Positions 1 through 5,041 of a DNA stretch of 32,036 nt are shown one piece after another. The translations under genes and the position numbers were made by a program. The notes beneath the pieces were generated by a model. It was given only the letters and a program-made list of their open reading frames with translations, did no database searches and was not told the DNA's origin. Numbering within the stretch: position 1 is the stretch's first letter; each line of letters starts with the position of its first letter. The stretch spans positions 1-32,036 of the forward strand of contig MPNE01000039.1 of assembly GCA_002238865.1 (NCBI GenBank), given 5' to 3'. The DNA is from Gemmatimonadetes bacterium bin94 (GTDB lineage Bacteria > Gemmatimonadota > Gemmatimonadetes > Longimicrobiales > Gaopeijiaceae).

Positions 1-1163
1 CTTCGCCGTGGCAGCACGGTGTCGCGCGCGGACCGCCCGGGCCTCGCCCGCCGCTTCCGCGCCCTCCCCCCCCCCCCCCCCCCCCCCCCCCCCCCCCCCC
101 CCCCCCCCCCCCCCCCCCCCCACCCCCCTCCCCCCCCCCCCCCCCCCCCGTCCCCCCCCGTCCCCGCACCGCCCCCCGTACCCCCCACCAGCACGGCCTC
201 CGTTTCCGTGAGCTGCTCCAGCCGGGCGTTCGCGGCTTCCAGCTGGAGGGCCTGCACACTGCGCCGCTCCAACTCTTCGGAGAGGTCGTCCACCTCGGCG
301 TCCAGCGCCAGGGCGCGGCTCTCCATCGCCTTGAGGTCGTCGGGCTTGTACTCGAGCTGGTCCCGCCGCCGGCGCCACCAGCGTCCATCCTGCACCACGG
401 CCTCCCATTCCTCGCTGCGGGCTTCCCGCACCGCGGCCGAGAGATCACCCAGGCCCCGGCCGCAGCCCCCGCACACGGCCTCCTCTCCCGCCTCGTCGAT
501 CGCCTTGAGCTGTGCGCGCAGCTCCCGCTCCCGATCCCGGTAGAGGTGCAGCCGCGTTTCGGCATCCTGCCGCTCGCGGACCCACTTCATCATCCCCGCC
601 TCGACCTCTCCCCGCACTTCGGTCAGCTCCTCGCGCAGCTCGCGCAGCCGCGCCTCGGTCTGCTCCGTCCCCGCGCGGGAGCGCCGCAGCCGCGCGGCCT
701 CATTACGGGCTTCGCGGGCCAGGCGCCGCACCCACTTCGTAAGGGACGCCGCGTCGGGCGTGGCCGCATCTCCTTCACTCGCCGGCGCGCGGCCCGGTTC
801 CCGGGTCATACGGGTCGCGTCGGGTCCCTGCAGCAGGGTCCCCGCCGCCGCGAGCCACACCTTCGCCGGGCCGGCGCCGAACCAGATTGCGGCGTACTCT
901 TCCCGCGAGAGCGCGTGCGCCCCGAGGATCGGGTGCAACAGCGACTCGAAGCCGTCCGAGCCGACCTGGAGCGGCCCCTCCCCGGCGAGGACGAGTGGTC
1001 CGGCGCCGCGGTACCGGCCCTGGCTCGCGTACGCGTCTTCGAGCGCCGACATGAACTCGCTCCAAAGCGGATCGCCCCCGGCGACGAATGCCACCAGTCC
1101 CCGGGCGTGCCGCAGATCCAGCTGGGGACCGCCCGATCCGGTCCGGAGCGCCGAGATCCTCAT
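1..1163 (-). CDS. SbcC/Rad50/YhaN-like coiled-coil protein with CxxC hook and no recognisable Walker A (partial)
   Basis: The frame starts at the ATG at 1163, which overlaps the stop of the SbcD-like gene as ATGA, so it was very likely co-translated with it. This open frame is usable for about 335 residues before the poly-G tract. Residues 1-45 line up with the N-terminus of YhaN/SbcC-type ATPases (MRI start, then GLVAFV), but the P-loop position reads AGGDPLWSEFMSAL instead of GxxGxGKS/T, so the lysine is missing. Residues 86-95 (LSREEYAAIW) resemble the Q-loop side of the family. Residues about 140-228 form a charged coiled coil. Residues 231-238 read CGGCGRGL, close to the CPVCGRPL form of the Rad50 zinc hook. 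Residues about 240-325 form the returning coil. The C-terminal ATPase lobe lies beyond the window or is lost. After the tract, coding-like sequence (EGAEAAGEARAV) reappears in a different frame. The family call is by inspection; loss of ATPase activity is inference. Confidence 0.7.
   Translation of the reverse strand, partial: MRISALRTGSGGPQLDLRHARGLVAFVAGGDPLWSEFMSALEDAYASQGRYRGAGPLVLAGEGPLQVGSDGFESLLHPILGAHALSREEYAAIWFGAGPAKVWLAAAGTLLQGPDATRMTREPGRAPASEGDAATPDAASLTKWVRRLAREARNEAARLRRSRAGTEQTEARLRELREELTEVRGEVEAGMMKWVRERQDAETRLHLYRDRERELRAQLKAIDEAGEEAVCGGCGRGLGDLSAAVREARSEEWEAVVQDGRWWRRRRDQLEYKPDDLKAMESRALALDAEVDDLSEELERRSVQALQLEAANARLEQLTETEAVLVGGTGGGAGTGGDGGGGGGGGGWGGGGGGGGGGGGGGGGGGRARKRRARPGRSARDTVLPRR
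66..149. repeat. Long poly-C (poly-G) homopolymer tract inside the SbcC-like gene
   Basis: Positions 66-121 are 56 consecutive C. After one A come six C, one T and 20 more C, and C-rich runs continue to about 178. On the coding strand of the surrounding gene this is poly-G and would encode polyglycine. The frame upstream of the tract (codon starts at positions congruent to 2 mod 3) differs from the Glu/Ala-rich frame downstream (congruent to 0 mod 3). Either the tract length is wrong, as with two-colour sequencing poly-G artefacts or assembly joins, or it is a real contingency-type tract that switches the gene on and off. Confidence 0.9.
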
Positions 1164-2212
1164 GCCCGCGCCGGTTCACCACCCCGAGACAGGCGGCCGA
1201 CAGGAATCAGCAGGTCGCCGACGGCCTCGTCGCCTGGCGGGGAGCCGCGCCACGCCCCTCGACCGCCCTTGCCATGCGACGTACCCTGTCCCGGGAGCGC
1301 GTCGACCCTCAATTCCGCGACACGGCGACGCACCCGGGCCAGCAATTCCCGGTCCAGCGCGGCCATGTCATCGGCCGAGAGTCCCCGGACCGGCACTCTC
1401 AGGAGTTTCCCGTCGATGCCCCCGGGGACGCCTGCCAAAGCCTCGTTCAGCCGGCGGGCCACCGTCGCCGCCCCCCCTCCCGTCGCCTCTACGGGGGCGA
1501 GGCTCACGGCCGCCCGCGCCTGTACCGGCCAGAAGCGAACCTCGCCCGAGTCCAGCCGTGCGGTGATGAAGCCCTTGTCCGTCGCCGCCTCTTCCCAGGG
1601 ATCCTGGCCTATGCGCTCCAGGGATCCCGAGTAGCTGATCCGATCCGCGACCCGGGTGTGGGCATGATTGGAGCCTAGCGCCACGTAGTCCCAGCCCCGG
1701 GTCCGGACCCCGTGCGCGTGAGAGGCTTCGGAGGCCAGAGCCGCGTGGATCACCAGGACATTCCACCTGGCCGCCGGATCGGGGGCCAGCTTCAGGTTGC
1801 CCGAGGTCATCAACGCCGCGTGGGGAACGAGAGTGACGCTGACCTCGCCGTCCCGCAGGCCGAGGCGCCTCACCCTCGTGGACGCGACCTCTACACGGTC
1901 CTGGGCGCCGATCACCGTCAACGGCCCGTGCCGGCGCGGATCCAGGGGTGTGTCGCGCACTCCCGCCACTACCGCGACGACAACTTCGGGGAGGGTGTCG
2001 CGAAGTCTGCGGACCGCGCTTGTGAACGTGGCGATGGGAGAAGCCGTAACGTCGGGATGGTCGAACACGTCTCCCGCGATGACCACCAGCTCCGGGCGGA
2101 GTTCGGCGACTCCCTGAAGGGTGGATTCGAAGATCCGCAGCACATCCGCACCGCGCTCCGCCCCCTGACCATCGTAACCCAGGTGCAGGTCCGAAAGGTG
2201 AGCCACTTTCAC
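1160..2212 (-). CDS. SbcD/Mre11-like metallophosphoesterase with altered GNHD motif
   Basis: The 350-residue protein matches the calcineurin-like fold of SbcD/Mre11/YhaO nucleases. Motif I is DLHLG (D8, H10). Motif II is GDVFD (D48). Later ligands appear as H156 in VLVIHAAL and H183/H185 in GSNHAH. The family signature ISYSGSLERI follows at 192-201, then KGF. Motif III, normally GNHD, reads GVRD at 84-87, so the Asn metal ligand and the catalytic His are replaced by Val and Arg. The C-terminal 130 residues form the usual variable capping region, ending in a basic, disordered-looking tail. The start is GTG at 2212, overlapping the upstream stop as GTGA; the stop overlaps the next ATG. Known family members work with an SMC-like ATPase in processing DNA ends. 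Nuclease activity here is doubtful, so no gene symbol is assigned. Confidence 0.85.
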   Translation of the reverse strand: MKVAHLSDLHLGYDGQGAERGADVLRIFESTLQGVAELRPELVVIAGDVFDHPDVTASPIATFTSAVRRLRDTLPEVVVAVVAGVRDTPLDPRRHGPLTVIGAQDRVEVASTRVRRLGLRDGEVSVTLVPHAALMTSGNLKLAPDPAARWNVLVIHAALASEASHAHGVRTRGWDYVALGSNHAHTRVADRISYSGSLERIGQDPWEEAATDKGFITARLDSGEVRFWPVQARAAVSLAPVEATGGGAATVARRLNEALAGVPGGIDGKLLRVPVRGLSADDMAALDRELLARVRRRVAELRVDALPGQGTSHGKGGRGAWRGSPPGDEAVGDLLIPVGRLSRGGEPARA

Positions 2213-4148: not shown

Positions 4149-5041
4149 GCTAACTCCGAGAGTATCGTCCGGTAGCTCCGATAGCGGAGCCTCTGAATGC
4201 GCCCCTCCTCGACCGCCGTCCGAACGGCGCAGTTGGGCTCATGAGCGTGCCGGCAGTCCTTGAAGTGACACTGCCCAAGGAAAGGACGGAAGTCCACGAA
4301 ACATCGGTCGAGTGCCTCCGGTGCGACATCCCCGAGCCCAACATCGGAAAACCCCGGGGTGTCCGCCACATGGCCGCCTCCGGCCAGGGGAATCAGGGAG
4401 CTGGAAACCGTCGTGTGCTTACCCGTCTTCGACCGTTTTCCGACGCGCCGCGTCCTCAGTGCGAGCGCGGGCTCCACCGCGTTGAGGAGTGAAGACTTCC
4501 CCACCCCCGACGGCCCCGCCAGCGCCGACGACCCGGCGTGGATCACCTCGCGGAAGGCGTCGATCCCTTCGCCGCTCACCACCGACGTCGACAACACGGC
4601 ATAGCCCGCCGTCCGATACTCCCTCGACAGATCGGCCGCCACGGCGCGGCCCGAACTCAGATCCACCTTGTTGAGGACGAGACAGCTCTCCATCCCACCC
4701 GAGTCGCCCATGACCAGCATGCGATCGATCACGCTGCGAGACGGAGGCGGGTCCGCAACCGACGCCACCACCAGAAGACGGTCGAGGTTGGCCGCCACCA
4801 CCTTGGCCATCCGGCCCCCCATGGCCCGCCTGACCAGATGCGTCTCCCTTGGCAGCACGGACTCGATGACGTGTCCGCCCCCATACACGGCCTCGACCCC
4901 GACCCGGTCCCCCACAACCACCTTGCCCGGGACCGCCCCCGAGTGCTTGAGCCGGCCCCTCAGAGACGCCTCTACCGTGCCCGCGGCGGTGCGGACCGTG
5001 TACACGCCGCCCACGGTCTCGATGACCTGCCCGGTCGTCAC
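4145..5041 (-). CDS. rsgA: Small ribosomal subunit biogenesis GTPase RsgA
   Basis: RsgA is a circularly permuted GTPase that checks late 30S subunit maturation in the cytoplasm. The 298 residues show an N-terminal OB-fold (about 1-75, with VVVGDRV). The permuted GTPase motifs follow in the expected order: G4 NKVD at 124-127, G1 GPSGVGKSS at 176-184, and G3 DTPG at 227-230. A C-terminal zinc site is formed by C258, C263, His265/267 and C271. Length and order are typical. The start is GTG at 5041; a GAGGG stretch lies 6-10 nt upstream, and an ATG a few codons further up is out of frame. It is the first gene of the five-gene overlapping operon. A 14-bp perfect palindrome lies about 43 nt upstream. 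Confidence 0.96.
   Translation of the reverse strand: MTTGQVIETVGGVYTVRTAAGTVEASLRGRLKHSGAVPGKVVVGDRVGVEAVYGGGHVIESVLPRETHLVRRAMGGRMAKVVAANLDRLLVVASVADPPPSRSVIDRMLVMGDSGGMESCLVLNKVDLSSGRAVAADLSREYRTAGYAVLSTSVVSGEGIDAFREVIHAGSSALAGPSGVGKSSLLNAVEPALALRTRRVGKRSKTGKHTTVSSSLIPLAGGGHVADTPGFSDVGLGDVAPEALDRCFVDFRPFLGQCHFKDCRHAHEPNCAVRTAVEEGRIQRLRYRSYRTILSELA

Follow-up and report, generated by a model that had tools for sequence, protein, structure and literature searches.

Gene organisation of the locus

The window, that is, the whole stretch of DNA analysed here, comprises 32,036 nucleotides and makes up an entire contig (G000:C16). At its left end, the minus strand carries five genes, encoding ribosome small subunit-dependent GTPase A (rsgA, 4145..5041), a flavin reductase-like protein (FR, 3549..4148), a membrane protein (TM, 2209..3552), an SbcD/Mre11-like protein (D, 1160..2212), and a shortened SbcC/Rad50-like protein that runs off the contig end (C, 1..1163). 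RsgA and FR were assigned by Pfam/NCBIfam, which also gave a Metallophos/SbcD-like N-terminus for D, and C was assigned through relatives aligned by hhalign. Each of the four junctions is a 4-nt overlap, which confirms the overlapping five-gene operon that had been described from the sequence alone. Upstream of rsgA on the same minus strand, open reading frame translations indicate a sigma-70-type factor (5195-6106) and an HD-domain-like gene (6225-7679).

The reading of C is cut at about residue 330 within an interrupted poly-C tract at the contig end (61..149, poly-G in C). Past this tract the frame is unreliable, and C can be trusted to about residue 325 (nucleotide 190 or so). Within positions 1-149, the final 60 bases resemble C in another frame; thus, the length of the tract is probably mis-assembled. 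Some relatives have a Gly-rich linker at this position. A search of the assembly with the C-terminal half of a relative as query, run without a positive control, did not find the C-terminal half of C. The first 320 residues are 57-62% identical to the closest relatives within the genus, and the readable part is therefore not a pseudogene fragment.

The membrane protein had been described as a six-TM protein. A 6-TM bundle is indeed present, and the description was incomplete in that roughly 220 further residues fold into a soluble domain. In the model of the window protein (pLDDT 89.6), residues 1-222 resemble MFS halves (Z 18.4, rmsd 2.7, 180 aligned), and the C-terminal domain (about 221-434) finds its best fold match in spermidine synthase 1inl (E 2.6e-4). 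The spermidine synthase fold is thus present in this domain. The window protein had no Pfam match, and a homologue at another locus (L134) matched PF01564 over cut-off. Spermidine synthases carry the motifs GGGDG and E-x-D and a catalytic Asp. These motifs are altered in the window protein, which has GAGSW and YETD and is devoid of DSxDP.

Lost catalytic residues and a retained zinc hook

In D, the catalytic motif III GNHDxP is replaced by GVRDTP (residues 84-89, 1946..1963, minus strand, from the motif table) and GHxH by G-S-N-H, so that the damage to the nuclease motifs seen earlier was borne out. Ligands of the phosphoesterase fold were assigned according to PMC5016852. The metal-2 Asn occurs in 0/72 D proteins, the first His of GHxH is retained in 6/72, and the catalytic His is replaced by Arg in 71/72 and by Cys in 1/72, whereas nine intact named relatives retain every one of these ligands and the catalytic His. 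Nevertheless, the view of a damaged nuclease-like protein applies only in part, as one of the two metal sites is retained: among the 72 proteins, the metal-1 ligands are kept in 72 (DxH Asp), 71 (DxH His), 70 (GD bridging Asp), and 70 (GHxH second His). As the Asn and usually the first GHxH His are lost, metal 2 should be gone.

D therefore lacks the full set of metal ligands and the catalytic His of Mre11/SbcD (DxH, GD, GNHD, GHxH) and has kept the phosphoesterase and capping fold, as indicated by Pfam Metallophos and by a fused D-C homologue (L105, 835 aa, model pLDDT 86.6). Residues 1-312 of this homologue align to MjMre11 over 280 residues (Z 27.8, rmsd 2.9; Foldseek E 1.4e-15), and these fold searches rank the Mre11 part only, not the Rad50-head remnant. 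In Escherichia coli, the SbcD variant H84Q yields a nuclease-deficient SbcCD (PMC6265447). LpxH has an Arg at the position of the catalytic His in all known species, and its Arg80 binds the substrate phosphate (PMC5016852). Thus, the fixed Arg of D may mark a new phosphate-binding role.

One locus from family f3 (L170; G066:C53; D at 5575-4415, minus strand) has lost the D motifs (GDRD, GHHP) with Walker A and Walker B of C intact. Judged by these motifs, it is an independent half-way case of degeneration and suggests that D is able to lose catalysis first and independently.

The ATPase motif of C was likewise correctly recognised as damaged. At the site of the lost Walker A (residues 23-40, 1044..1097, minus strand, located by placing N-termini side by side), the window reads LVAFVAGGDPLWSEFMSA versus GLTGIIGPNGAGKSTILEAI in intact relatives, with the N-terminal heads compared by eye only. 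Walker A, the Walker B Asp, and the H-loop His are absent from 68/68 C proteins of full-length degenerate loci and present in intact relatives, so that C lacks the ATPase signature of Rad50/SbcC. A GxxxxGKS-like string at one locus (L097) was rejected as a Walker A, since it lies within the Gly-rich linker and away from the Walker A position. In Pfam/NCBIfam, the window C gave no ATPase match, and family searches returned weak coiled-coil matches only. Homology to Rad50/SbcC (coil, hook, and head) is nonetheless recognisable, as C relatives align with intact Rad50-like proteins over the hook and the C-terminal head (hhalign prob 99.7, E 1.8e-26).

The zinc-hook domain of the window C (W-RERQDAET...CGGC...EEWE-VVQDG-WWRRR-QLE-KP) lies at 327..587 on the minus strand, with the CxxC (C231, C234) at 462..473. 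This CxxC is kept in about 67/68 C proteins and is invariant in the 41 fused proteins. Mean pairwise identity amounts to 0.63 for the hook and its flanks versus 0.31-0.37 for the remaining C segments; by this sequence comparison, the zinc hook is the best-conserved part of C. In the L105 model, the CxxC (Cys559 and Cys562) tops an antiparallel coiled coil as in Rad50, with helix 487-556 on one side and helix 567-599 on the other, and each arm of the coil is predicted to be shortened, to about 70 residues. Separate C proteins have 415-518 residues, whereas complete intact relatives reach about 810-830. In 41/68 cases, D and C form a single protein. The distribution of this fusion requires about five changes on the tree, and fusion thus arose or reverted several times.

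Distribution, selection and neighbourhood

The majority of genomes in the genus and in the family gave strong D matches. The same gene order, for which a search in other genomes had been proposed, recurs as RsgA-FR-TM-D-C throughout the genus, in some genomes without FR. Other genera have FR-TM-D-C with rsgA 1-4 kb away, and tight linkage to rsgA is mostly confined to the window's genus. Scanning named genomes yielded 80 loci, each in a Gemmatimonadota MAG, and many of these MAGs are titled Longimicrobiales or Gemmatimonadales. The loci closest to the window include bins that, judging by their names, presumably come from sponge studies.

In a class-wide sample, a high-scoring D of the degenerate type was present in 63/77 genomes of the window's family and absent in 14 (a hand count from the search listing), and the pair is thus not essential. 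Motif checks revealed no intact copy among the fetched loci of this family, and the fetched loci outside it were intact with the exceptions of L170 and of genome G177. The latter is 71% complete and assigned to family f4, and its contig of 3805 bases (L205, G177:C80) carries a degenerate fused D-C, possibly by misbinning or transfer. In the wider sample, degenerate and intact loci form two clean classes, with L170 as the exception. In the D tree, the 72 degenerate proteins form one clade that is sister to 14 intact ones (support 98/93 and 99/96), consistent with one change, although the outgroups are long branches and the root is less sure.

Drift and constraint were to be separated by dN/dS, which proved to be low. 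Values for D (0.12-0.22) resemble those for RsgA (0.13-0.25), and pairwise values for C are mostly 0.13-0.24, with one pair at 0.46. The pair is under purifying selection, and no partly decayed copies were noticed among about 100 full-length degenerate loci. To judge from these sequences, the degeneracy is fixed and conserved and does not represent decay.

At 57/58 TM-bearing loci of the window's family, the TM gene lies <=10 nt from D, with a 4-nt overlap in 38. Whether the TM protein and the degenerate pair always co-occur had been raised as a further point, and they do not: D-C was found without a detected TM at L092, L097, L124, L125, L128, L133, L137, and L138, and RsgA-TM without D-C in genomes G009, G011, and G033. 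TM is therefore ruled out as a strict partner of D-C, and the case for a membrane complex is weakened. The idea that TM is specific to degenerate loci (0/9 intact named loci have it) was also discarded, because intact loci of the sister families f2 and f3 carry TM upstream of D. In these families, the intact pair has FR and a TM homologue in its vicinity, and the neighbourhood is thus older than the degeneration.

The f3 TM homologue carries the motifs GGGAYTLPRR...VVELDPEV...GDAR, and in f3 a small gene on the opposite strand separates it from D, a gap that is closed in the window's family. At L075, L076, L163, L166, and L169, the interval that separates TM from the intact pair encodes, on the other strand, a conserved Lys-rich protein of about 110-140 aa (KKKKK...SPEE-HRQLQD-VQALPYA). 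At L073, L074, and L164 (family f2), the 6-TM domain runs in frame into a short-chain-dehydrogenase-like domain that replaces the spermidine-synthase fold. One genome with the full set also has a second RsgA-FR-TM set without D-C (L168, G012:C77:1-7000), which is either contamination or a real second locus.

The window's genome, checked for a second sbcCD, encodes a canonical SbcCD whose hook reads CPIC, and the canonical SbcC of the genus carries its own CPIC. Hence, the degenerate pair is not the sole sbcCD of this genome, and one of the outcomes named beforehand as refuting the sequence-only reading is eliminated. The genome also encodes a YhaO/YhaN-type pair that has Walker A and GNHD and is without CxxC. 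In pairs of this type (L171 and L213-L218, covering six further genomes and the window's own), the C partner shows the Walker A GPNE[AS]GKS and lacks CxxC, and both GNHD and GHxH are present in the D partner. Most genomes of the family have such a pair; in G027 and G041, neither canonical SbcCD nor a YhaO/YhaN-type pair was found at the cut-offs used. A role of the degenerate pair as hetero-hook decoy of a co-resident YhaN-type ATPase was ruled out, since the YhaN-type partner has no CxxC.

A probable structural role and its relation to known systems

With a probability of roughly 0.6, we are dealing with a pseudo-Mre11-Rad50 whose nuclease and ATPase functions disappeared on the stem of the window's family, while the pair itself was retained as a structural or binding protein. 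The re-purposed complex of the sequence-only reading thus stands as far as it concerns a catalytically degenerate pair under selection (conserved order, low dN/dS, intact pairs elsewhere in the genome). The membrane association and the DNA or RNA binding suggested there are conjectural, and the former is weakened by TM and D-C each occurring alone. The pair would descend vertically from the ordinary Mre11-Rad50 pair of the order, with both functions lost on the family stem. Judging from the CxxC and its flanks, two copies would then dimerise constitutively via the Cys4-zinc hook, by analogy to the Rad50 hook, which is described as a constitutive dimerisation module (PMC6969161) and as forming a very stable dimer (PMC5093744). 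Dimerisation would probably also involve the Mre11-like domains, and the result would be a short ATP-independent clamp or tether. The pocket of D, with metal 1 and an Arg comparable to Arg80 of LpxH, may bind a phosphate-containing ligand and not cut DNA. Where it is translationally coupled to the TM protein, the pair probably acts near the inner membrane. A hook-dimerised and perhaps membrane-proximal scaffold is the function inferred for it.

D might instead be a phosphoesterase with a new function or a phospholigand sensor and not a scaffold, using metal 1 and an invariant Arg-Asp pocket on a different substrate such as a nucleotide, lipid, or glycolipid phosphate, with a Rad50 remnant that only dimerises it. 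The metal-1 Asp/His/Asp/His in 70-72/72 proteins and the Arg in 71/72 exceed what a pure scaffold needs, and the active membrane-lipid enzyme LpxH has an equal His-to-Arg change (PMC5016852). LpxH, however, has its seven metal ligands complete, the Asn among them (PMC5016852), whereas D is without the Asn and usually without the first GHxH His. D may have a non-Mre11 one-metal hydrolase activity; as the explanation of the pair as a whole, we regard this reading as unlikely. A division of labour, in which the degenerate pair is the tether for a co-resident, hookless, and intact YhaO/YhaN-type nuclease pair, would fit the catalytically intact pairs without CxxC in the seven genomes checked and their presence in most family genomes. 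It is improbable on balance, because some genomes with the degenerate pair lack such a partner at the cut-offs used (G027, G041) and the window's genus also has the canonical SbcC with its own hook. A further and improbable idea is that two complexes divide the work within one bacterial family, with catalysis left to an active nuclease pair devoid of a hook and tethering to an ATP-independent pair that is enzyme-dead, carries the hook, and is coupled to the membrane.

If a redundant Mre11-Rad50 pair were still decaying neutrally, this could account for its absence in 14/77 family genomes and for the variable heads of C. Such decay is rejected on the dN/dS values, which are like those of rsgA, and is made highly improbable by the fixed Arg and hook and by frames that stay open across dozens of genera, with no partly decayed copy noticed among about 100 degenerate loci. 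A working nuclease-ATPase with unusual residues is scarcely credible too: the Mre11 fold and metal 1 are retained, but all 68 C proteins miss the three ATPase motifs and all 72 D proteins both the metal-2 Asn and the catalytic His.

The preferred reading, a catalytically dead pair kept for its structure, matters because a role of the Rad50 hook beyond ATP-driven head engagement and the nuclease is hard to test, as mutants of the ordinary complex alter several things together. The degenerate pair is a natural separation, in which the hook is retained, both enzyme activities are lost at the level of their motifs, and selection continues to act. Structural work and tethering assays would also gain a short hook protein that occurs naturally as a single chain. 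A universal repair machine would have turned pseudoenzyme across one bacterial family, and the motif and selection data suggest its conversion into a structural protein in one Gemmatimonadota family. Searches of open-licence papers turned up no Mre11-Rad50 that had lost both activities across a whole lineage while retaining the hook, whereas Mre11/Rad50 fusions (PMC3175470) and inactive Mre11-like domains in polymerase B-subunits (PMC10721889) are already known.

With Mre11-Rad50/SbcCD, the degenerate pair shares the Mre11 nuclease-capping fold, the D-C order with a 4-nt overlap, the zinc hook, and remnants of the Rad50 head; it differs in its missing catalytic residues (Walker A, Walker B Asp, H-loop His, metal-2 Asn, catalytic His), in a coil that is shortened in the model, and in often being one polypeptide. 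Fusions of the Mimivirus R555 type likewise have the Mre11 part followed by the Rad50 part in one chain (PMC3175470). R555, however, still has Walker A, Walker B, and almost the full set of nuclease residues, and such fusions are sporadic and often located on plasmids, phages, or near transposases (PMC3175470), whereas the degenerate pair lacks the motifs and its inheritance looks vertical across a bacterial family. The YhaO/YhaN-type pair also joins a metallophosphoesterase gene to an SMC-like ATPase gene, but has intact catalytic motifs, no zinc hook, and a different locus. LpxH, which has the phosphoesterase fold like D, likewise carries Arg in place of the catalytic His; it differs in retaining both metal sites and in having its own lipid-binding insert. 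In the B-subunits of eukaryotic replicative polymerases, an Mre11-like (inactive PDE) domain lost its activity and kept its architecture (PMC10721889), as seen for D, although these subunits have neither a Rad50 part nor a hook.
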